Both the position numbers and the translations under genes were made by a program. DNA of 64,000 nt, from positions 310,001-374,000 of the forward strand of contig NZ_JAERQM010000005.1 in NCBI RefSeq assembly GCF_019029495.1, in the 5' to 3' direction. Shown in pieces: positions 38,698 to 48,483 of this stretch (position 1 is the first letter of the stretch; every line of letters starts with the position of its first letter). The notes under the pieces are model-generated. The model saw only the letters and a list, made by a program, of their open reading frames with translations. It was not told where the DNA came from and searched no databases. The DNA comes from Falsiroseomonas oleicola (GTDB taxonomy: Bacteria; Pseudomonadota; Alphaproteobacteria; Acetobacterales; Acetobacteraceae).

Positions 38698-38725
38698 TGG
38701 TGGGCGCTGTGGGCTCGAACCTACG
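38698..38725 (-). repeat. tRNA-Lys 3'-end remnant (distal attachment-site repeat)
   Basis: 28 bases matching the T arm, acceptor strand and CCA of the tRNA-Lys at 48408-48436 with a single missing base; beyond this the sequences diverge completely. It cannot be a functional tRNA. Confidence 0.85.
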
Positions 38726-39457: not shown

Positions 39458-40471
39458 TCAGCGAACCTGGCCTGCGGGTCGCTGTTGCTGCTGCGCCGTC
39501 ACGATCACATCCTGGATCGCTTTCGTCAGCGCATCGCCAACGCCTGTCGCGTTGCCCTTCCACGCCTCGTTCAGCAGGTTCAGGATCCGATCCTCGTCCG
39601 CCGTCTCCGCCGTGAACGCCAGCATGTTCGCCCGCGCGGGCATGCGCGGCACGGTGATGGACATCGCGAGATCGGCGAAGGGGTCGCCGGTCGTGCCGTC
39701 GCGTGCGATGATCTGGGTGCCCGGCGCCACGCGGCCGAAGTTCAGCGCGAACACCGCGTCCGCACCCTCGGCCGCCGTGCCCGAGGTGGCATTCTCGCGG
39801 GCCGGCGTGCCGCGGAGCACCAGCACCATCCCAATCGCCTTCGGGTCATCCGTGCCGCGGGTTGCCGCCGTGCGCGCGAAATGCAGGTAGCGCGGGCGCA
39901 GCATGAGCGTGGCGCCCTGGCTGCCGCCGACACCCGGCGCCGCTGCCGTCACGTCCAGTTGCGCCTCCATGTAGAAGGCGGGCGGTGCCGTCAGGCCGAC
40001 CGTCCGCATGTTCTCGGCCGTCACGAGACCCTGTGCCTGGGGCACGTCCGCCGGATAGCTGCCCACCGAGCCCCGCGCCACGATCAGGCAACGGCTGCCT
40101 GTCCCCAGCGCCGTCTCCCCGCTGCCGCGCCAATTCGCGTCGCGCTCCTCTTCGGCGCGCTTGAGGTAGTCGGTGATCGCGGAGATCACGAAATCCACCG
40201 CCACCGGCGCGAGCGCGCCAAGTACCACACCGCCCGCCATCATCCGCTGAGGACCGCCCGACGGAGCGGACTGGGTCTGCAAATCCGCAAAGCCTCCCGT
40301 CACCGGGCACGTGTCGCGCAGCGCGACCACCGCTGTCGACCGCTCATGCCGCGTCGTCATCTCGACGGCCGTCACCGGCCCGCCATTTCCGCTGCCGGTG
40401 TGCCAGTTGCAGCCTGCCAGCAGCACCGGCACGCCCAAGGCACATCCGGCCTTCAACATCGTCCGCATCAT
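39458..40471 (-). CDS. Island lipoprotein, function unknown
   Basis: 337 residues with a lipoprotein signal (MMRTMLKAGCALGVPVLLAGC; lipobox LLAGC). No recognised domain. Visible features: a hydrophobic segment MMAGGVVLGALAPVAVDFVISAITDYLKRA around residues 80-110, which may be a membrane helix or buried hairpin, then a long beta-rich part and a C-terminal helix ending in QQQQRPAGQVR. Probably envelope-anchored. It follows the 137-residue protein on the same strand (88-base gap) and is divergent from ycaO. An AGGAAG ribosome site sits directly before the tandem ATGs at 40471/40468. Confidence 0.7.
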   Translation of the reverse strand: MMRTMLKAGCALGVPVLLAGCNWHTGSGNGGPVTAVEMTTRHERSTAVVALRDTCPVTGGFADLQTQSAPSGGPQRMMAGGVVLGALAPVAVDFVISAITDYLKRAEEERDANWRGSGETALGTGSRCLIVARGSVGSYPADVPQAQGLVTAENMRTVGLTAPPAFYMEAQLDVTAAAPGVGGSQGATLMLRPRYLHFARTAATRGTDDPKAIGMVLVLRGTPARENATSGTAAEGADAVFALNFGRVAPGTQIIARDGTTGDPFADLAMSITVPRMPARANMLAFTAETADEDRILNLLNEAWKGNATGVGDALTKAIQDVIVTAQQQQRPAGQVR

Positions 40472-40559
40472 CTTCCTGTCTCCCTCGCTGCGCACCGATC
40501 CGGCGCGGGAAGGAGGGTGCGCGCGCCGCCGTGATACGCGCGTCAGCCCAGCGTGACCC

Positions 40560-40973
40560 TCACAACACTTCCCCGAACCACCGCTGTCGCTCCGCCTCTA
40601 TCCGGCAGTCCAGCCGCCCCTGAAGTTGCGCGACGAGCCGCAGGAAGAGCCGGTCCACGTCGCCCGTGAGCGTGACCGCGCCGCGCGCCGGCACCAACCG
40701 CCCCGCCACGGCAATGCCCGGCGGCAAGGTGTCCAGGAGCATGAATGGGGTGCCATGCGCGCTTCGCCCCAGCGGCCGCGCCGCCAGCGTCAGCCTGGGC
40801 GGCGGCATCGGACCCACGCCGCGCCCGACCCACCCAATCAGCAGCAGCGCGCCATCGGCGCCCGATCGCGACACGACGAACCAGGCCGGCCGCACCGTCC
40901 GGTTCGCACGACCATCGCGCCACGAAAGCTGCATCGCGCCACGAACGGCGGTGACGAAGCCATCCTTCGCCAT
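40560..40973 (-). CDS. Island orphan protein (137 residues)
   Basis: No signal peptide or clear TM helix, no family recognised. It opens MAKDGFVTAVRGAMQLSWRDG and contains WFVVSRSGADGALLLIGWVGRG and RLFLRLVAQLQGRLDCRIEAERQRWFGE. The alternation suggests a beta-sandwich with a final amphipathic helix. One Cys. It is divergent from ycaO with an 87-base shared promoter region and upstream of the lipoprotein gene on the same strand, so the two may form a unit belonging to the island system. Confidence 0.6.
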   Translation of the reverse strand: MAKDGFVTAVRGAMQLSWRDGRANRTVRPAWFVVSRSGADGALLLIGWVGRGVGPMPPPRLTLAARPLGRSAHGTPFMLLDTLPPGIAVAGRLVPARGAVTLTGDVDRLFLRLVAQLQGRLDCRIEAERQRWFGEVL

Positions 40974-41060
40974 GCATCCTCCTTCCCAACATCAACCGGC
41001 GGCAGTCTCGCCGTCGCCGCGTGAAGCACGCGTGAGTGCCGGGGAGGCAGGAGGCGGCGC

Positions 41061-42287
41061 ATGGCGATACCGGTCACGACCCTCCTGGCCGCCGCAGCCG
41101 CACAGGCGGGTGCCGCCGCCGATCCCGACGCAGCGGCCCTGCTCGATCTGCTTGAATGGCCAGCCCATGCGCCCGCCGCGATTCGCGCGGATCGTGCCGG
41201 CCTGCTGCGCATCGGCGCCGCCTGCCGACGCGTCTTTCGCCTGCGCGCGCCTGATGCGCCCGGCCTGCATTGCTTTGGTGCCGAACTCGACCTCGCCGCC
41301 ATCGCCGGCGAGCCAGGCCTGGCTGTGCTCGGCACCTCCGGCGTCGGCGCCACCCCTGGCGCCGCCTTCGCCGCCTGCCTTGGCGAGGCGGCAGAGTTTG
41401 CGGCCCAGGTCGAGACGCCCGCCCTGCGCGCGCAGCGCCTCGGCCAGGAGGTAGCGCTCCGCCGCTGGCCGGACGGAGCGCCCCGCGGGCTGCCCTTCGA
41501 CCGCTGCTTCCGCCGCGCGCCCGATCGCGTCATCTCGACGCCGTCCGCGCCGCTGTCGATCGGCTGCGCCGCTGCTCCCACCGCGGCCGAGGCCCAGCTC
41601 CGCGCCGTTCTCGAGCTGGTGGAGCGCGACGCCGTCGCGCTCTGGTGGGTCGGTGGCCATCCCGGTCGTCCGCTCGCCCTCGAACACGCCACGCCCGCCG
41701 CCGCCTGCCTCGCCGCCTTGCGCGAAGGGGCAACCGGCCGCCTCGCCTGGCTGCTCGACATCACCGCTGATCTCGGTGCACCGGTTGTGGCCGCCATCTC
41801 CTTCGCCGGCGATGGCACCGGTTTCTGCTGCGGCACCGCCGCACGCCCAACCCTTGCCGCCGCGGCCGAGGCGGCGGTGCTCGAACTCTGCCAGAACGAG
41901 CTCGCCCAGCGCGTCGTGGAACGCAAGGCGGCCGAGCGTGGCGAGGAGGGCCTGAACGCGCGCGATGTCGCGATACGTGCCCGCCACCTCCGCGTCACGC
42001 CGGATGACGACTGGCTGCTGCATGCGCGCGGCTTGCCACGGCAGGCCCTCGTGCCGGGCGAGACGGCGGAAGCACGCCTCGCGGAGGTCGGCCGCCGTAT
42101 CGCTGAGGCCGGGTTGGAGCTCATCTTCCTCGAACACGCCGCCCCACCCGAAATCCCGGTATGGCGTGCCGTCTGCGACGGCCTTGCCTGCACGCCGTCC
42201 ACGGAGGCCGCGCCCCGGCTGCTGTCGGCGATCGCGAGAACCGGCGGCGGGCCGGGCCATCGCCATGGATTGGCATTGCACGCGTGA
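41061..42287 (+). CDS. Stand-alone YcaO-domain protein
   Basis: 408 residues. YcaO enzymes use ATP to activate a peptide-backbone amide, forming azolines, amidines or thioamides. The ATP/Mg signatures are present: ACLGEAAEFAA (two Glu about 109/112), EAQLRAVLELVERDAVALWW (Glu about 177-188) and GTAARPTLAAAAEAAVLELCQNEL. The typical proline-rich azoline-type C-terminus is absent; it ends HRHGLALHA. No E1-like/ThiF, dehydrogenase or TfuA partner gene is in the island, so backbone chemistry other than azole formation is likely, or the partner is elsewhere. AGGAGG precedes the ATG. 15 bases separate it from the BTAD regulator gene, suggesting co-transcription. Confidence 0.85.
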   Translation: MAIPVTTLLAAAAAQAGAAADPDAAALLDLLEWPAHAPAAIRADRAGLLRIGAACRRVFRLRAPDAPGLHCFGAELDLAAIAGEPGLAVLGTSGVGATPGAAFAACLGEAAEFAAQVETPALRAQRLGQEVALRRWPDGAPRGLPFDRCFRRAPDRVISTPSAPLSIGCAAAPTAAEAQLRAVLELVERDAVALWWVGGHPGRPLALEHATPAAACLAALREGATGRLAWLLDITADLGAPVVAAISFAGDGTGFCCGTAARPTLAAAAEAAVLELCQNELAQRVVERKAAERGEEGLNARDVAIRARHLRVTPDDDWLLHARGLPRQALVPGETAEARLAEVGRRIAEAGLELIFLEHAAPPEIPVWRAVCDGLACTPSTEAAPRLLSAIARTGGGPGHRHGLALHA

Positions 42288-42302
42288 CACCGCGACGCCA
42301 CA

Positions 42303-44357
42303 ATGCCGAAACGATCCAAACGAGCTGTGCCGATGGCTGAGACGCACGCTGCTCCCCTCCCGGCGCAGCTCACCACCGCGCCGCTGGCCATCAACCTCCT
42401 TGGGGGCTTCCGGCTTCTGGCGGACGGCCAGGAGATTCGGCTGCGCAACCGCAAGGCACGCGCGGTGCTCGCCTGTCTCGGCCTCGCCCCCTCCGGCGAG
42501 GAAACGCGCGAACGTCTGGTCGGGCTGCTGTGGAGCGAATCGTCGGAAGCCAAGGGCCGGGCCTCGCTCCGCCAGGTCGTGCACGAGCTGCGCGATGCCC
42601 TGCCGCCGGGCGCCCTGGCCGCCGAGCGGCTGAGCCTGATCCTGGTCCGCCACGCCTTCGTGCTTGACGTGGACGCAGCGGGGGCCTCGCTTGCCGCCGG
42701 GCACATACCGCCGCTGCTGCTCGAACGGTCACGCATCGCCGAGACCCTGCTCGACGGACACCGTGACCTCGATCCCGCCTTCGACGTCTGGCTGCTGGCG
42801 AAGCGCCAATCGCTGCACGAGGGCTTCGCGCGGCGGCTGGAAGCGATGCTCCGCGGGGCCGACCCCGCAACACGGCGCCTTTCCGCCCGCGCGCTGCTGA
42901 ACCTCGATCCGACCCATGAGGAAGCCTGCCGCCACGCCATGGCCGCCGCCGTCGCTGAGGGCGACATCACCGGTGCGCTCCGCCTCTACGAAGCGTTGTG
43001 GAACCTGCTTGGCGAGGAGTTCGACATGGAACCCTCGCCGGCGACCCAGGAACTCGTCGCCGCCATCAAGTCCGGTCGCCTCGGCCCCAACGCGGAACCC
43101 GCGCCGCCCCCGCCTCCGCCCACGCCCGCGCCGAGCCCGCAGACGCGCATGCTGCTGCGCATCGAGCCCTTCGCCGCGCATGGCGTGCCGGAGGACCGCA
43201 CACACCTCGTCCAGGGCTTCCGGCACGATCTCATCGCGTGTCTTGTCCGCTTCCGCGAATGGTTCGTGCTCGATGGCGGCACGCCGCCGGCCGAGGCTGC
43301 TCTCGCCTTGCGCGTCTCCAGCCGCTACGCGATCGGCGGCACAGCCTACCAGGCCGGCAGCCGGATCAGCCTGGTGCTGACGCTGCGGGATATCGAGAAC
43401 GGGATCGTGGCGTGGAGCGAGCGCATGGACCTCGACCTCGCCACCTGGTTCGAGGCGCAGAGCCGCCTGGTGCGCGGCATCTCCATGTCGCTCAACGGCC
43501 AGATCTCCGCCGCACGCCTGGCCGGGATCGCCGGCCGGCCGGATGTCTCGCTGGCCGCGCATGACCGCTGGCTGCTCGGGCAGTCCGTCATCCGCGGCTT
43601 CAGCCCGGACCATTGGGAACGCGCGCGCGCGCTGTTCCGCGAGGCGGTCGCCGAAGACCCGAACTTCTCCCCCGCCTACAGCAGCCTCGCGCAGTTGGAG
43701 AATGCCTGCCATATCGTGCTGCCCGGCACGCTGCGCGACCGCGCGCGCGAGGAACGCTCGCTCGACCTCGCCCGCCGTGCGGTCCATCTCGATCCGATGG
43801 ACAGCCGGGCGCAGCTTTGCCTCGGTTGGTCGCTGGCGATGGCGCGCCAGCATGATCGCGCCGCGACGCCGATGTCGCTCGCCTGCGGGCTGAACCCGAA
43901 CGACAGTTGGACGCTGATCTCGGCTTCGCTGTTCCACGCCTTCTGCGGCAACCACGCGGAGGCGGCGCGCCTGGCCGCCGAATCGCTGGAGATGACCGTC
44001 TCGCCCGGGCGCACGCATTGGGGCTACCAGGTGACGGTCGCCTATCTGCGTGGCGACGACCGCGCGGCGATCGAGGCCTGCGACCGCGCTGAGGATGTCA
44101 TCCGCACGCTGCCCGCCTGGCGCGCCGCGGCGCTGTTCAACCTCGGCGACACCAGCGGCGCCCGGCGTGATGCGGCGCGCTTTTTCGAGCTGGTCAGCGC
44201 GGCATGGACCGGCGCACGGCCGGCGAGCGAGGTGGCGATGGGCCGGTGGCTGCTGCATCTGTATCCCATCGCCACGACGGAAAACTGGGAGCGCCTTCGC
44301 CGTGGCGTGACCGGCGCCGGCATCCCCGACACCGGCCTCGCCTTCGGCGCCTGGTAG
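42303..44357 (+). CDS. BTAD/SARP-type transcriptional regulator with TPR region
   Basis: 684 residues. N-terminal winged helix (LAINLLGGFRLLADGQEIRLRNRKARAVLACLGL ... LRQVVHELRDAL), bacterial transcriptional activation domain (about residues 140-255, LARRLEAM... LYEALWNLLGEEFDMEPSPATQEL), a proline linker (APPPPPPTPAPSP), then a TolB/adenylate-cyclase-like middle part (VSSRYAIGGTAYQAGSRISLVLTLRD) and TPR-like helices from about 410 (ARALFREAVAEDPNFSPAYSSLAQL). SARP regulators normally activate biosynthetic clusters in actinobacteria and are rarer in alphaproteobacteria. It is the obvious candidate activator of the island. A second ATG at 42333 is possible. Confidence 0.87.
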   Translation: MPKRSKRAVPMAETHAAPLPAQLTTAPLAINLLGGFRLLADGQEIRLRNRKARAVLACLGLAPSGEETRERLVGLLWSESSEAKGRASLRQVVHELRDALPPGALAAERLSLILVRHAFVLDVDAAGASLAAGHIPPLLLERSRIAETLLDGHRDLDPAFDVWLLAKRQSLHEGFARRLEAMLRGADPATRRLSARALLNLDPTHEEACRHAMAAAVAEGDITGALRLYEALWNLLGEEFDMEPSPATQELVAAIKSGRLGPNAEPAPPPPPPTPAPSPQTRMLLRIEPFAAHGVPEDRTHLVQGFRHDLIACLVRFREWFVLDGGTPPAEAALALRVSSRYAIGGTAYQAGSRISLVLTLRDIENGIVAWSERMDLDLATWFEAQSRLVRGISMSLNGQISAARLAGIAGRPDVSLAAHDRWLLGQSVIRGFSPDHWERARALFREAVAEDPNFSPAYSSLAQLENACHIVLPGTLRDRAREERSLDLARRAVHLDPMDSRAQLCLGWSLAMARQHDRAATPMSLACGLNPNDSWTLISASLFHAFCGNHAEAARLAAESLEMTVSPGRTHWGYQVTVAYLRGDDRAAIEACDRAEDVIRTLPAWRAAALFNLGDTSGARRDAARFFELVSAAWTGARPASEVAMGRWLLHLYPIATTENWERLRRGVTGAGIPDTGLAFGAW

Positions 44358-44367
44358 GCGCGCGGCC

Positions 44368-44772
44368 TCAGGCGCAATTGCCCATCGTGTAGTCGGCGAT
44401 GCGCATGGCATGGAACTCCATCTTCGCCGAATGATCGGCGCCTTCCTGCGCCCCGGCTGCCTCGATGCCAGCGTAGAAGGGGGCGAGTGGATAGCCCCCA
44501 TGTTCCGTGATGGCCTTCTCCGAATTCGTGATCATCTCGGCCGGCGACAGTTTGATGACAAGCTCGTCCATGCCGTGCGTCACCAGCGTCAGCTTGGTGA
44601 CGTGGCTGCCCACCTTGGCGATCGCGTCGCGTGGTGGTGATGCGCCGGGCTTCGCTTCGACCGCCTCCTTGAAGGCTTGAAGGTCCCGCGGGAAGGTCTC
44701 CGGCTTGGCCGCCCACGCCTTCATCATCTCGCCGAATTCCTTGAACTTGATGACCTGCAGTTGCCGTTCCAT
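44368..44772 (-). CDS. 134-residue island protein; candidate substrate of the modification genes
   Basis: I do not recognise the family. The protein is soluble and acidic-basic balanced: MERQLQVIKFKEFGEMMKAW, then KVGSHVTKLTLVTHGMDELVI, and a C-terminus AMRIADYTMGNCA whose penultimate residue is the only Cys. It lies 19 bases downstream of the heme peroxidase gene on the same strand with its own AGGAG ribosome site, so the two are very likely co-transcribed. Position beside a modifying oxidase and a YcaO gene makes it a candidate precursor or carrier protein, but a subunit or chaperone role is equally open. Confidence 0.7.
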   Translation of the reverse strand: MERQLQVIKFKEFGEMMKAWAAKPETFPRDLQAFKEAVEAKPGASPPRDAIAKVGSHVTKLTLVTHGMDELVIKLSPAEMITNSEKAITEHGGYPLAPFYAGIEAAGAQEGADHSAKMEFHAMRIADYTMGNCA

Positions 44773-44791
44773 CGGAGGTCTCCTTCCAGGG

Positions 44792-46573
44792 TTACAGAAA
44801 ATTGGGGCACGCTTCTCGCAGACCGTTCCGGTCGGCGATGAACTCGATCATGGCCGCCATGTCACCGATCTCCGGCACGCCATCGAACCGCCCGGGCAGC
44901 TGCATCTCAGTGGCGAGCCTGGCCAGGCCGTCGCGCAGCGTGCCGTCGCGGCGCTCGCCTGGCAGGCGGTCATCGAGCATGGCGCCATACAGGACTTCTG
45001 CCATCAGGATTGAACCGAGCACGCCGAGCCGTTCTCCCCCAAGGTCATGCATCGCCTCGAACTGGACGTAGAAGGGCAAGGGCGGATCACGGGCGATCTG
45101 CGCCAGATCCTCGGCCGGCACGGCGGCCCCGCCGCATTCCCTCAGCCACAGGATGATTGCCGCTTCGCGGGCCGCTTCCGCCGTCAGCGGCGAGGTGTCG
45201 AACGGATCGACCTTCCAGCCGCGGCGCTTGATTCTCTCCCTGACCGCGACGATCAAAGGTGCAACAGACCAGATTCCCGAAACCACCGCGCTGATCAGAT
45301 CCTGGAACGCGAGGCCGGCCGGCGCGCCGGGCACCGCCGGCTGAAACAGTGTCTCCATGCGAAGTTCGCCGGAGTAGAGCGGCATGATCCGCCTGCTGAA
45401 GTTGAGGGCCGGTGCCGGCAAGGCTGGCGTCCCGATGGGAAAAAAATTCGCCCATCTCAGGATCCATCCCGCGCTCAGCGGCATCATCGCGGGTTGCCGC
45501 GCGCTGGTTTTCAGCAACGCCTCACGGAATGGCTGTCGCGGGAACCCGTCACCCGTCGCGTAGTGGGGGCGCACCATGGCGTGCGCGAAGCGCGCCGCCC
45601 CATGCGAGAATTCCAGCGGGATGGATACGCGGCCGCGCTCGTAGGTGGCGACATCCGGCCGCCACGCGCCGCTGCCGGCCTCGTCGCGGTCAAGAAGGGC
45701 GGCCGCACCGCCTTCCCGATACACCTTCTCGACCTCTGGGTGCAGCAGTCGCGGCAGCAGGTCCTGCCGGAGGATATGCCGGTAGATCATCGTCGTCGCG
45801 GCCCTCGCACAGGCGAACCGCCGCTCGGTATCGGCAGGCGCCTCCGTGCTGACGCCGCCGGTCACCTTGGGCATCCCGATCGTCTCGGCGATCGTGTTGT
45901 GCAGCAGGTGGAACAGCGCCGTCATCTGCGCAAGCAGCGCGTTATCCTCGTTCCGCGGATCAGCGATCAACGGGTCGCCGAAGGGAGGCTCGGCCTTCAG
46001 CTCCGAGGATGCTTTGACGGGCTTTGGCGTCGAGCCTGCCGGGAACGGCACGGCCGCCCGCGCGATGTCGCGCTGCGCCCCATCGGCGCGGCCGACACCC
46101 GCCTTGCCGCGCATCGGCCCGAGGCGCAGCCGTGTACGCGCGGTGTCGCGCGGGTCGTCTGGCGCATAGGCGAAAGGGCAGGCTGCCGGGCCGCCGCCGT
46201 AGAGCGTGTCCAGCCTCAGCCGGGCGATGCGCCCGTTTCGTGCCTGGGCCTGTGCGCCGGGCAGCGCCCAGAACGGGGTTGGCGACTGCACGCAGTCATG
46301 CGCGACGAGTTGGAGGAGATAGGTGTAGCCGGCAGGCAGCCCCCGGTTCAGCCGATCTGGCGCGACCTCGTCGCCGCTGTCCGACATCAGGACGGCCAGG
46401 ATCGCCATGAGGCGCTGCGTCTCCTCAAAGCTCCGCGTCGCGGCGAACCGGTCCTGAAGCGGGGGATCATAGAGGATGTTGCGGTAGCCGCGCAGGTCGG
46501 GCCGGCCCGCGGCCACTGGCCGTGGCGGGGCAGCAGATGCATACGCACGACCTCCCCCATGAATGCCTGCCAT
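44792..46573 (-). CDS. Animal-type heme peroxidase
   Basis: 593 residues of the peroxidase-cyclooxygenase superfamily. The distal site is QLVAHDCVQSP (His about 92 with following Asp), the catalytic Arg lies in DPRNEDN (about 207), ALFHLLHN matches the xxxHN element and the proximal His is in LEFSHGAARFAHAMVRPHY (about 331). It oxidises halides or phenolic/tyrosyl side chains with H2O2. There is no signal peptide, so it is probably cytosolic, unusual for a secreted-enzyme family. GGAGG precedes the ATG at 46573; a much longer frame upstream overlaps the subtilase gene and is not real. Confidence 0.88.
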   Translation of the reverse strand: MAGIHGGGRAYASAAPPRPVAAGRPDLRGYRNILYDPPLQDRFAATRSFEETQRLMAILAVLMSDSGDEVAPDRLNRGLPAGYTYLLQLVAHDCVQSPTPFWALPGAQAQARNGRIARLRLDTLYGGGPAACPFAYAPDDPRDTARTRLRLGPMRGKAGVGRADGAQRDIARAAVPFPAGSTPKPVKASSELKAEPPFGDPLIADPRNEDNALLAQMTALFHLLHNTIAETIGMPKVTGGVSTEAPADTERRFACARAATTMIYRHILRQDLLPRLLHPEVEKVYREGGAAALLDRDEAGSGAWRPDVATYERGRVSIPLEFSHGAARFAHAMVRPHYATGDGFPRQPFREALLKTSARQPAMMPLSAGWILRWANFFPIGTPALPAPALNFSRRIMPLYSGELRMETLFQPAVPGAPAGLAFQDLISAVVSGIWSVAPLIVAVRERIKRRGWKVDPFDTSPLTAEAAREAAIILWLRECGGAAVPAEDLAQIARDPPLPFYVQFEAMHDLGGERLGVLGSILMAEVLYGAMLDDRLPGERRDGTLRDGLARLATEMQLPGRFDGVPEIGDMAAMIEFIADRNGLREACPNFL

Positions 46574-46723
46574 CGCCGCCTCCAGCCTGTCCTGGAAGGT
46601 TGATCGGCCCGCGTGATCCCACCGTGAATCTCGCCGCGCGGCCCGCCTCACGGCCTGCTCACACGCATCGCGCCAAGGTCCCGGCCGGCGACATCGCCAG
46701 GCCACCAACGAGGGAGTGATCCG
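46574..46723. promoter_or_regulatory. Divergent promoter region peroxidase / subtilase
   Basis: 150 bases between two divergent island operons. No sigma-70 or EcfG match is convincing. It is a natural place for BTAD-regulator binding sites, but no repeated heptamer was found by eye. Confidence 0.35.
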
Positions 46724-48223
46724 ATGCAATACACCTACATGGCGGGCGACCGGCAGGTCACGCTGGAGCCCGATCCCACCGTCGTCGCCGTCCGCTTCGA
46801 CGACCGCGCGCCGAAGAGCGGCCGTGCCCGCGCCACCGAGGCTGTGCGCGGCCTCAGCCCCTTCACCAGCCGGTTCGAGGTGCCGGGCGAGCGCCTCACC
46901 ATCGTTCCCGTCCCGCCCCCTGCGATCGGCGGCATCGGTCCCGCCGCCGCGATCAGCGGGCTCGACAACCAGCCGGAGGTCGCCAAGGCGCTGCCGGTGT
47001 TCCGCGTTGGCCCGAACCAGGTCGTGCCGACCGAGCGCGTCATCCTCGCCGTCAAGGCGGGCGAGGACGCCGAGGTGGTCGCGCGGCGGCACGACCTGAC
47101 GCCCACGGCTCCGGCCGAGGAGGGACGCATCGTCGCCACGGTGGCCGACAGTGCCGATATCTTCGCCGCCTGCCGTGCCCTCGCCGCCGATCCCGCGGTG
47201 GACTACGCCGAGCCGGATTTCGTCACCATCGGCCGCCATATGCCGGCCTTCGTGCCGACCTCGCCCGGCCCGCTCGATCCGCTGCTCAGCGAACAATACG
47301 CGCTGAGGCTCATCGGCGCGCTGGCCGCGCAGCGCCTCGCCCCGGCACGGCGCGAAGTCACCATCGCCATCCTCGACGAGGGCGTGGACACCCGCCACCC
47401 CGATCTCGCCGCCGCCGTCATCAACGGGTACGACGCCGTGGACAAGGACAGCTACCAGGAGCCGAACCCCTGGGACGGCCACGGCACTGCCTGTGCCGGC
47501 CTTGCCGCCGCCATCGGCGGCAACGGCATCGGCATCCGCGGCGTCGCCGCGGGCTGCGGCCTGCTGCCGGTGCGCATCGCCTACTCGAACCAACCGGGTG
47601 GCCCCTGGGTCACCCGCGCCAGTTGGATCCGTGACGCCATCCGCTGGAGCTGGATGAAGGCGGGCGCCTCGGTGATCAGCAACAGCTGGAGCGGGGGCGC
47701 CGACTCCATGGACATCAGGCGGGAGATCGAAAGCGCGCGGACCCTCGGACGCAGTGGTCGAGGCTGCGTCGTGCTGTTCGCCGCCGGCAATGACGGCGGG
47801 CCAGTGCTGTTCCCGTCCAACCTCCCGAACCTGCTCACCGTCGGCGCCAGCAACCAGTTCGACGAGGTGAAGACGCGCACCAGCGCCGATGGCGAGAACT
47901 GGGCCAGCAACCACGGCCCCGTCGCCGTCACCGCGCCCGGCGTGCGCAACCTGACCACCGACATTCGCGACGGCTCCGGCTATCACCAGGGCGACTACGT
48001 GCCCTGGTTCAACGGAACCTCCTCCGCGACGCCGCTCGTCGCCGGCGTCTGCGGGCTGATCCTCTCGATCCGGCCGGAACTGACCGAGGCGCAGGTACGC
48101 CAGCTCATCTGCGACACGGCGGTGAAGATCGGTCCATTCCCCTACACCAGCGGCCGCAACGACCACGCGGGCTTCGGCCGGGTGGACGCCCTGGCCGCCG
48201 TACAAGCGGCGCTCGCCGTCTAG
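46724..48223 (+). CDS. Subtilisin-family (S8) serine protease without signal peptide
   Basis: 499 residues. An N-terminal part (1-200) with a propeptide-like region (ILAVKAGEDAEVVARRHDLTPTAP...VDYAEPDF) precedes the S8 domain: Asp in TIAILDEGVDTRHPDL (about 218), His in DGHGTACAG (about 253), oxyanion Asn in LFAAGNDGG and Ser in FNGTSSATPLVAG (about 433). No Sec or Tat signal is visible, so it would stay in the cytosol, like the S8 proteases that mature RiPP peptides. GAGGGAG lies just ahead of the ATG. It is the last island gene before tRNA-Lys. Confidence 0.9.
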   Translation: MQYTYMAGDRQVTLEPDPTVVAVRFDDRAPKSGRARATEAVRGLSPFTSRFEVPGERLTIVPVPPPAIGGIGPAAAISGLDNQPEVAKALPVFRVGPNQVVPTERVILAVKAGEDAEVVARRHDLTPTAPAEEGRIVATVADSADIFAACRALAADPAVDYAEPDFVTIGRHMPAFVPTSPGPLDPLLSEQYALRLIGALAAQRLAPARREVTIAILDEGVDTRHPDLAAAVINGYDAVDKDSYQEPNPWDGHGTACAGLAAAIGGNGIGIRGVAAGCGLLPVRIAYSNQPGGPWVTRASWIRDAIRWSWMKAGASVISNSWSGGADSMDIRREIESARTLGRSGRGCVVLFAAGNDGGPVLFPSNLPNLLTVGASNQFDEVKTRTSADGENWASNHGPVAVTAPGVRNLTTDIRDGSGYHQGDYVPWFNGTSSATPLVAGVCGLILSIRPELTEAQVRQLICDTAVKIGPFPYTSGRNDHAGFGRVDALAAVQAALAV

Positions 48224-48261
48224 CGCCGCTTCACCGGGAGCGAAGACGGCGAAACGGCTCC

Positions 48262-48292
48262 AGAGTCTGTCAGCGCGGCGCTGACAGACTCT
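48262..48292. terminator. Perfect 15-bp dyad after the subtilase gene
   Basis: AGAGTCTGTCAGCGC (48262-48276), one base, GCGCTGACAGACTCT (48278-48292). It is 38 bases after the S8 stop and lacks a T-run. It may be a terminator or a leftover palindromic site of the integrated element. At 31 bases it is the longest perfect dyad without a real loop in the window. Confidence 0.5.
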
Positions 48293-48329
48293 AAGAACAA
48301 GTCCGCCGTGAACAGGCGACAAGCCGGAG

Positions 48330-48407: not shown

Positions 48408-48483
<76 letters not shown>

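Follow-up and report, generated by a model that had tools for sequence, protein, structure and literature searches.

Among YcaO enzymes, most cyclodehydratases require a partner protein, according to the excerpted text of PMC5589413, and other outcomes of YcaO chemistry are the thioamide (the same excerpt) and the amidine (an excerpt of PMC11002830). In the thioamidation of McrA, the target is a large protein and not a released peptide, as the section of PMC5589413 consulted states. For heme peroxidases, the consulted portion of PMC4420034 assigns the heme esters to the Asp of a G-Q-x-x-D-H-D pattern and the Glu of an R-x-x-E pattern, and makes an exception to the first pattern for its families 4 and 7, the former being the cyclooxygenases. 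Here we describe a cassette of four genes in which the two types of enzyme stand together: a YcaO enzyme, a BTAD/TPR regulator, a protein of 134 residues (p134) and a heme peroxidase. The cassette lies in a stretch of 64,000 nucleotides (the window) of Falsiroseomonas oleicola (Acetobacteraceae; contig NZ_JAERQM010000005.1, positions 310,001 to 374,000).

A full-text search of the open-licence literature returned no description of a set of YcaO and heme peroxidase; in a similar search for YcaO with BTAD, the second term stood only in reference identifiers of the excerpts returned, and no such set was described there. The consulted part of the type-strain survey of Acetobacteraceae in PMC8776678 names Roseomonas mucosa as the only one with a YcaO cluster, which suggests that the survey overlooked the cassette. 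On balance, we lean towards the view that the cassette is a dedicated post-translational modification system whose two enzymes alter the C-terminal tail of p134. If so, several alphaproteobacterial orders would possess a modification pathway undescribed in the literature searched, in which YcaO chemistry and a heme peroxidase are brought together on a conserved tail of a protein.

Conservation of the cassette across genomes

An earlier note on this DNA, made from its letters alone, had grouped five genes as an undescribed set, the four named above and an S8 subtilase. All five are intact open reading frames (ORFs) where it had placed them, and Pfam agrees with its naming. Comparative genomics shows that YcaO, the BTAD regulator, p134 and the peroxidase form a conserved cassette, and for these four the claim of an undescribed set stands; the subtilase has to be taken out of it. 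In 37 distinct p134 loci, profile searches find the peroxidase adjacent in 37, the BTAD gene in 34 and YcaO in 33 (fragmentary in one, L111), whereas the family of a further small protein, p137, is present in 23 and the subtilase in only 4. Wherever all four core genes adjoin, their order is YcaO> BTAD> <p134 <peroxidase, and flanking contexts differ among the more than 30 loci beyond the window. Co-location of the cassette genes is far beyond chance. The recurrence of its families in other genomes, on which the earlier note had staked its proposal, is thus observed, the subtilase excepted. These counts come from the profile searches; the locus maps were made by simple codon-score gene calling, which missed YcaO in L075 and L087 and the peroxidase of the window.

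Of 150 genomes of the family, 8 contain p134 (the window's included). Peroxidase matches below 1e-20 occur in exactly these 8; a YcaO match below 1e-40 is present in 7 of them, and the contig of the eighth stops just past p134. With the window genome counted each time, p134 is present in 3/15 genomes of the genus, 7/200 of the order, 3/289 of the class and 6/398 of the phylum, the last all within the window's class. Scanning the genome collection with a sequence pattern yielded loci in Nisaea, Hyphomicrobium and other Hyphomicrobiales as well as in Acetobacteraceae (Belnapia, Rhodovarius, Paeniroseomonas, Craurococcus and others), 24 altogether; 7 of them, equal in length to contigs already in the set, were dropped as duplicates, which left the 37 distinct loci. 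Since the scan used the pattern FHAxRI[GA]DY, the R, D and Y of the p134 tail were selected in these loci, while neither the Cys nor the place where the protein ends was subject to selection; the same tail is found in loci that came from whole-protein or profile searches or were reached via other genes.

The association also holds when p134 is left aside. Among the 289 class genomes, with the best 4 peroxidase and best 6 YcaO candidates scored per genome, peroxidase matches below 1e-90 and YcaO matches below 1e-60 are confined to the same 4 genomes. In all four, p134 adjoins the peroxidase; three were found by the first p134 profile, and the fourth (L143) is too diverged for it. L143 has the same gene order, with a short protein in the place of p134 that weakly matches a fuller profile (1e-6 in a two-locus search) and ends RRFADYTLSHCGP, with two residues after the tail Cys. 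This strongly diverged cassette (L143:6616-11967, G374:C21) was reached through the peroxidase and YcaO alone. Intermediate matches, between the class limits and 1e-20, add 9 further genomes for each enzyme, of which only one is common to both (G550, L144). At L144:4658-10077 (G550:C41), a YcaO gene is directly followed by a peroxidase gene near a gene for an adenylate/guanylate-cyclase-TPR protein, and a nearby protein of 123 residues ends RSCASC. Judging from its gene content, L144 may be a sister system with the cyclase replacing the BTAD regulator.

Four loci have no adjacent YcaO gene: L039, which is cut by a contig end, L067 and L068, where YcaO is on another contig, and L083, where it is elsewhere in the genome. 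The genomes of L067 and L068 have the cassette split over contigs, with YcaO near BTAD and the peroxidase with p134; in the former, an additional gene lies between YcaO and BTAD. YcaO-BTAD and peroxidase-p134 therefore behave as two pairs that share genomes even when apart. In the genome of L083, a metagenome-assembled genome of Hyphomicrobiaceae, a cassette-family YcaO gene is found at L105:9423-10640 (G568:C1), apart from BTAD, p134 and the peroxidase. YcaO fragments lie between BTAD and p137 at L111:11734-12132.

Two further candidates were tried and rejected. A separate hidden precursor peptide finds no counterpart among 337 small ORFs (15-120 residues) taken from 18 loci at distances of up to 700 bases from the core, among which no family recurs in more than two loci. 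As for plasmid or viral carriage, plasmids gave no p134 match (two queries), no YcaO match and only peroxidases of less than 60% identity, and the 11 stretches of viral contigs that fit the pattern include no relative of the cassette.

p134 and its C-terminal tail

All 37 p134 proteins end in R-[ILV]-[GA]-D-Y-[ST]-[ILMV]-x-x-C-x, and most in the narrower form R-[IV]-G-D-Y-[ST]-[IV]-x-x-C-x. The tail Cys is the second residue from the end in 37/37 proteins, with exactly one residue after it. Over 22 sequences that are less than 70% alike, mean identity is 62% for the last 12 alignment columns and 31% for the rest of the protein, whose alignments also contain invariant residues (G14, P28, Y94 and Y100). 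With this 11-residue signature, others can locate members in genomes. No family scored above its cut-off for p134 in Pfam, NCBIfam, PADLOC or PHROGs. NCBIfam includes the NHLP and Nif11 precursor models, and eight of eight p134 members gave 0 NCBIfam families at E <= 10.

AlphaFold models p134 as a mostly helical protein, with a predicted local distance difference test score (pLDDT) of 81 and a predicted TM-score (pTM) of 0.67, and low confidence for residues 131-134 (mean pLDDT 49); no PDB fold matched it at E <= 0.001. The protein is probably cytosolic, its body folded and helical and its C-terminal tail flexible and near-invariant. Since the comparison of loci shows the invariant tail on the only small protein common to them, p134 is, in our judgement, probably the substrate of the system. 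The earlier note had counted it among the small proteins of no known family. A classical secreted ribosomally synthesized and post-translationally modified peptide (RiPP) is doubtful, because the tail is near-invariant and a Pfam scan of eight island proteins revealed no transporter, E1-like/ocin-ThiF partner, TfuA or flavin mononucleotide (FMN) dehydrogenase. For loci beyond the window, the scan for such partner domains covered selected flanking genes.

YcaO enzyme and BTAD/TPR regulator

With 108.6 bits against PF02624 (cut-off 25.7), the YcaO protein belongs to the YcaO superfamily. Compared with PDB, its family profile matched TruD (6e-32) and LynD (1.6e-31) best, followed by MusD (1.1e-22), MJ1094 (2.5e-22) and, more weakly, the chain named YcaO (6e-13). 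The best NCBIfam match was the SagD model TIGR03604, at 80.7 bits below its cut-off of 219.25. E109, E112, E185, E188, R189, D190, E275, Q278 and E280 are invariant in 20/20 aligned rows; these positions align with TruD, and the acidic residues among them are taken to form the ATP/Mg nucleotide site.

The regulator scores 39.4 bits against PF03704 (cut-off 22.1), which assigns it to the SARP/BTAD group, and its DNA-binding region scores weakly (0.12 for Trans_reg_C). In addition to the 34/37 loci where its gene adjoins, it lies beside YcaO on other contigs in the two split-cassette genomes. Judged by eye, a dehydrogenase-like gene stands between BTAD and p134 in Rhodovarius (L036:6378-7292 and L073), and a similar one follows BTAD in the split genomes (L102:1-687 and L104:506-1444). 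Among the anti-phage defence models of PADLOC, none matched YcaO, BTAD, p134 or the peroxidase; the subtilase and IetS models matched the S8 gene only.

A peroxidase clade with replaced heme-ester acids

The peroxidase scores 32.6 bits against An_peroxidase PF03098 (cut-off 25) and so carries the superfamily domain. Its cassette relatives have the distal motif Gln-x-x-x-His-Asp, with the distal His in 33/34 rows (one row is cut) and the catalytic Arg and proximal His in 34/34. The two heme-ester acids are replaced. In the position of the Asp of G-Q-x-x-D-H-D, the 33 readable rows have Ala (29), Thr (3) or Gly (1), and the Glu of R-x-x-E has given way in all 34 to Asp (17), Ser (8), Gln (8) or Ala (1), while both acids are kept in 13/13 of the non-cassette peroxidases compared. 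The latter comprise 12 loci from family genomes (16 non-cassette genomes were used, 4 of which gave no locus) and a second copy from L115; the 34 cassette rows leave out L038 (truncated), L111 and L114. In a tree of these proteins, the 34 cassette peroxidases form one clade against the 13 others with branch support of 100/100, the program warning of long branches, some of which join cassette and non-cassette groups. The second L115 peroxidase (L115:13355-14857) lies beside the cassette of that locus and is a canonical one, with both ester acids present.

Possible modification of the p134 tail

In the mechanism that we propose, the YcaO enzyme would spend ATP to activate a backbone amide in the p134 tail, the simplest site being the amide before the invariant Cys, which would yield a thiazoline. 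The peroxidase would then oxidise the tail and might convert the thiazoline to a thiazole, standing in for the usual flavin dehydrogenase; alternatively, it could generate a Tyr radical that would join to the Cys or ring next to it. The BTAD/TPR protein would presumably switch both convergent operons. That YcaO and the peroxidase both act on the tail has in our view an even chance, and azoline or azole chemistry at this site is put forward tentatively. Similarly tentative is a bolder version, in which a YcaO-made heterocycle at the tail Cys and a non-esterified heme peroxidase would together produce a conserved group, cross-linked or aromatic, that many alphaproteobacteria would use intracellularly, a radical on the Tyr or the azoline converting R-[IV]-G-D-Y-[ST]-x-x-x-C-x; such a product would found a class of its own among modified proteins or protein-derived cofactors. 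Because the p134 tail hardly varies, we favour an intracellular role, be it as a modified protein or an excised cofactor, over an antimicrobial one. The earlier note had read the genes as steps of a maturation route: backbone modification, oxidation and a dedicated regulator are all consistent with what was found, and leader cleavage by the subtilase is not general, because that enzyme occurs in 4/37 loci from two genera of one family.

Several observations weigh against a tail-modifying system of this kind. There is no E1/ocin-ThiF partner or TfuA in the island, which leaves substrate recognition unexplained; the peroxidase has no feature that would prove peptide oxidation; and no product or mass shift is known for the cassette. 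Most RiPP cores are not conserved in the way that the p134 tail is. The set of genes is not always complete: in L083, BTAD is in place with YcaO elsewhere; YcaO was not found in the p134 genome of L066/L039, where the contig ends; and L111 has only YcaO fragments next to intact-looking p134, BTAD and peroxidase genes. Loss of the ester acids is not universal, the peroxidases of L143 and L144 having lost the Asp and kept the Glu, as judged by eye. The distance matrices of the four core proteins correlate at 0.82-0.96 over the 26 loci with all four genes, which speaks for the system, though this correlation may come from shared ancestry alone.

Other explanations of the cassette were weighed. 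The modified tail might be excised, much as happens with pyrroloquinoline quinone or mycofactocin, and serve as a small redox cofactor, a metal-binding peptide or a signal; p134 would then be a long precursor with a folded leader. A near-invariant core is typical of cofactor precursors, and the short invariant tail after a folded body would suit one, with the subtilase of 4/37 loci as a possible local protease. Yet no protease is common to the loci, the core has no transporter and the p134 body has invariant residues of its own, so we regard excision as unlikely. Alternatively, p134 may be a recognition or partner protein of YcaO, of the peroxidase or of both, the true target being elsewhere, for example the peroxidase itself. 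Its gene adjoins that of the peroxidase in 37/37 loci, 19 bases downstream in the window, and the partner requirement of most YcaO cyclodehydratases in the excerpt of PMC5589413 would otherwise be served by no known protein of the island. An invariant, flexible C-terminal tail with a Cys would be unusual for a binding partner, however, and p134 matches no known fold; we consider such a role slightly more doubtful than excision.

A conventional secreted RiPP, such as a bacteriocin-like azole peptide with p134 as its long precursor, could draw on the YcaO enzyme being closest, among solved structures, to azoline-forming cyclodehydratases, and on the island location in the window. It appears improbable to us, given a core without a transporter, a tail near-invariant across genera and the lack of an NCBIfam match for 8/8 p134 proteins at E <= 10. 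Finally, a tRNA duplication at the flanks of the region and the remnant of a transposase inside it might be expected if unrelated genes merely shared one island, but the same four genes stand together in more than 30 other loci with differing flanks, and both the 37-locus counts and the test on 289 class genomes contradict a chance assembly, which we hold to be very improbable. Modification of the p134 tail by the cassette enzymes is the reading that we retain.

Layout, accessory genes and mobility of the island

From left to right, the region at 38.7-48.5 kb contains the transposase remnant, a putative lipoprotein gene, p137, YcaO, BTAD, p134, the peroxidase, the subtilase and tRNA-Lys (Table 1). 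YcaO and BTAD point rightward with a gap of 15 bases, the peroxidase and p134 leftward with a gap of 19 bases, and the two pairs converge 10 bases apart. The peroxidase gene is nested in a longer ORF with a TTG start (44792-48322); its likely start is the ATG at 46573, preceded by GGAGG. No hydrophobic signal segment was seen at the N-termini of the peroxidase and subtilase, as judged by eye and not with a signal predictor, which agrees with the earlier description of both as lacking signal peptides.

Table 1. Features of the island and its borders, in window positions
Feature	Position	Strand	Evidence
Duplicate of tRNA-Lys 3' end, candidate left attachment site	38698..38725		28-base match
Transposase remnant, 175 residues	38757..39284	-	PF01527 and rve_3/rve_2 end in a single short ORF
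Putative lipoprotein, local	39458..40471	-	Lipobox-like LLAGC (by eye)
p137, accessory protein, 137 residues	40560..40973	-	Family in 23/37 loci
YcaO enzyme, 408 residues, without fused partner domain	41061..42287	+	Pfam PF02624, 5.1e-31
BTAD/SARP-like regulator with TPR region, 684 residues	42303..44357	+	PF03704, 1e-9
p134, likely substrate protein, 134 residues	44368..44772	-	In 37/37 loci by construction of the set
p134 C-terminal tail RIADYTMGNCA, presumed modification site	44371..44403	-	R, D, Y and C invariant in 37/37
Heme peroxidase, peroxidase-cyclooxygenase superfamily, 593 residues	44792..46573	-	PF03098, 4.5e-8
S8 subtilase, local accessory	46724..48223	+	Peptidase_S8 PF00082, 1.8e-44
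tRNA-Lys (CTT), candidate right attachment site	48408..48483	-	ARAGORN

The small proteins had been described as being of no known family; this is borne out for p134, p137 and the lipoprotein-like protein, the latter two having no Pfam or NCBIfam family above the curated cut-off. For p137, a relative in L085 was modelled as an all-beta protein (pLDDT 81, pTM 0.79) with weak Foldseek matches only (best E 4e-3, TM-score 0.35). Its all-beta model led us to reject p137 as a winged-helix recognition element; the protein is a candidate helper. In one clade, p137 is followed by a protein of about 780 residues without a Pfam family (L033:3503-5842 and relatives in five further distinct loci), and its neighbour in Belnapia and close relatives is a methyltransferase-like protein. 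The lipoprotein-like gene encodes 345 residues in its longest form, the start at 40471 (337 residues) being more plausible, and its product is probably not cytosolic because of the lipobox-like LLAGC.

The subtilase was rejected as a core component on the strength of its presence in 4/37 loci (the window, L060, L061 and L101). The lipoprotein found no support as a conserved part, the window protein having no detectable relative near the subtilase in L060, L101 and L061; those of L060 and L101 have lipoprotein-like proteins nearby that are homologues of one another, with no detectable homology to that of the window.

The segment had also been called mobile. In favour of this, 28/29 bases of the tRNA-Lys 3' end (48408-48436) recur 9.7 kb away at 38698-38725, with one one-base gap. 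The duplication fits an element inserted at this tRNA, which makes such an insertion plausible, with partial support; no integrase is present among the eight scanned island proteins. The transposase remnant, presumably IS3-like, has an N-terminal helix-turn-helix region fused to the very end of an integrase domain. In a search for the empty site, the gene to the right of the tRNA was found in 11/15 genomes of the genus (the window's included), and the short stretches compared from the others of these (about 1.5 kb on each side) hold neither tRNA-Lys nor the left-flank gene. The YcaO of the window is closest to proteins of another genus, with 63% identity to L062 and 59% to L061, compared with 48% to the congener L060, identities that would fit horizontal transfer. 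The picture is not uniform across the cassette, because the peroxidase, unlike YcaO, is closest to the congeners L060 (51%) and L101 (49%).

Comparison with known systems

The nearest described relatives are the thiazole/oxazole-modified microcin (TOMM) or linear azol(in)e systems of the TruD, LynD and SagD type, which resemble the cassette in the alignment of YcaO along its catalytic region and in an invariant Cys in a C-terminal segment. The cassette departs from them in that the scanned island proteins include no E1-like/ocin-ThiF partner, flavin dehydrogenase or transporter, and in having a peroxidase, a near-invariant core and a protein-sized substrate. With YcaO-TfuA thioamidation, as in the thioglycine of McrA and in thioamitides, it would share ATP-dependent activation of the backbone; it differs by the lack of TfuA in the island, the invariant Cys adjoining the probable site, the peroxidase and a match to MJ1094 weaker than that to TruD. 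The ItfB system likewise combines a YcaO enzyme with a precursor that has a conserved C-terminus, but ItfB, in the excerpt of PMC11002830, is fused to an Fe-S recognition domain and accompanied by a radical SAM enzyme and exporters, none of which the cassette has.

Its regulator follows the AfsR/SARP plan of a BTAD domain and then TPR repeats, and differs in being tied to this YcaO and in its weakly scoring DNA-binding region. The peroxidase shares with the peroxidase-cyclooxygenase superfamily (PF03098) the distal Gln-x-x-x-His-Asp motif, the catalytic Arg and the proximal His, whereas the cassette clade has both of the heme-ester acids that the excerpt of PMC4420034 describes replaced by other residues, and would thereby provide a defined test of how this superfamily may be tuned toward protein oxidation.

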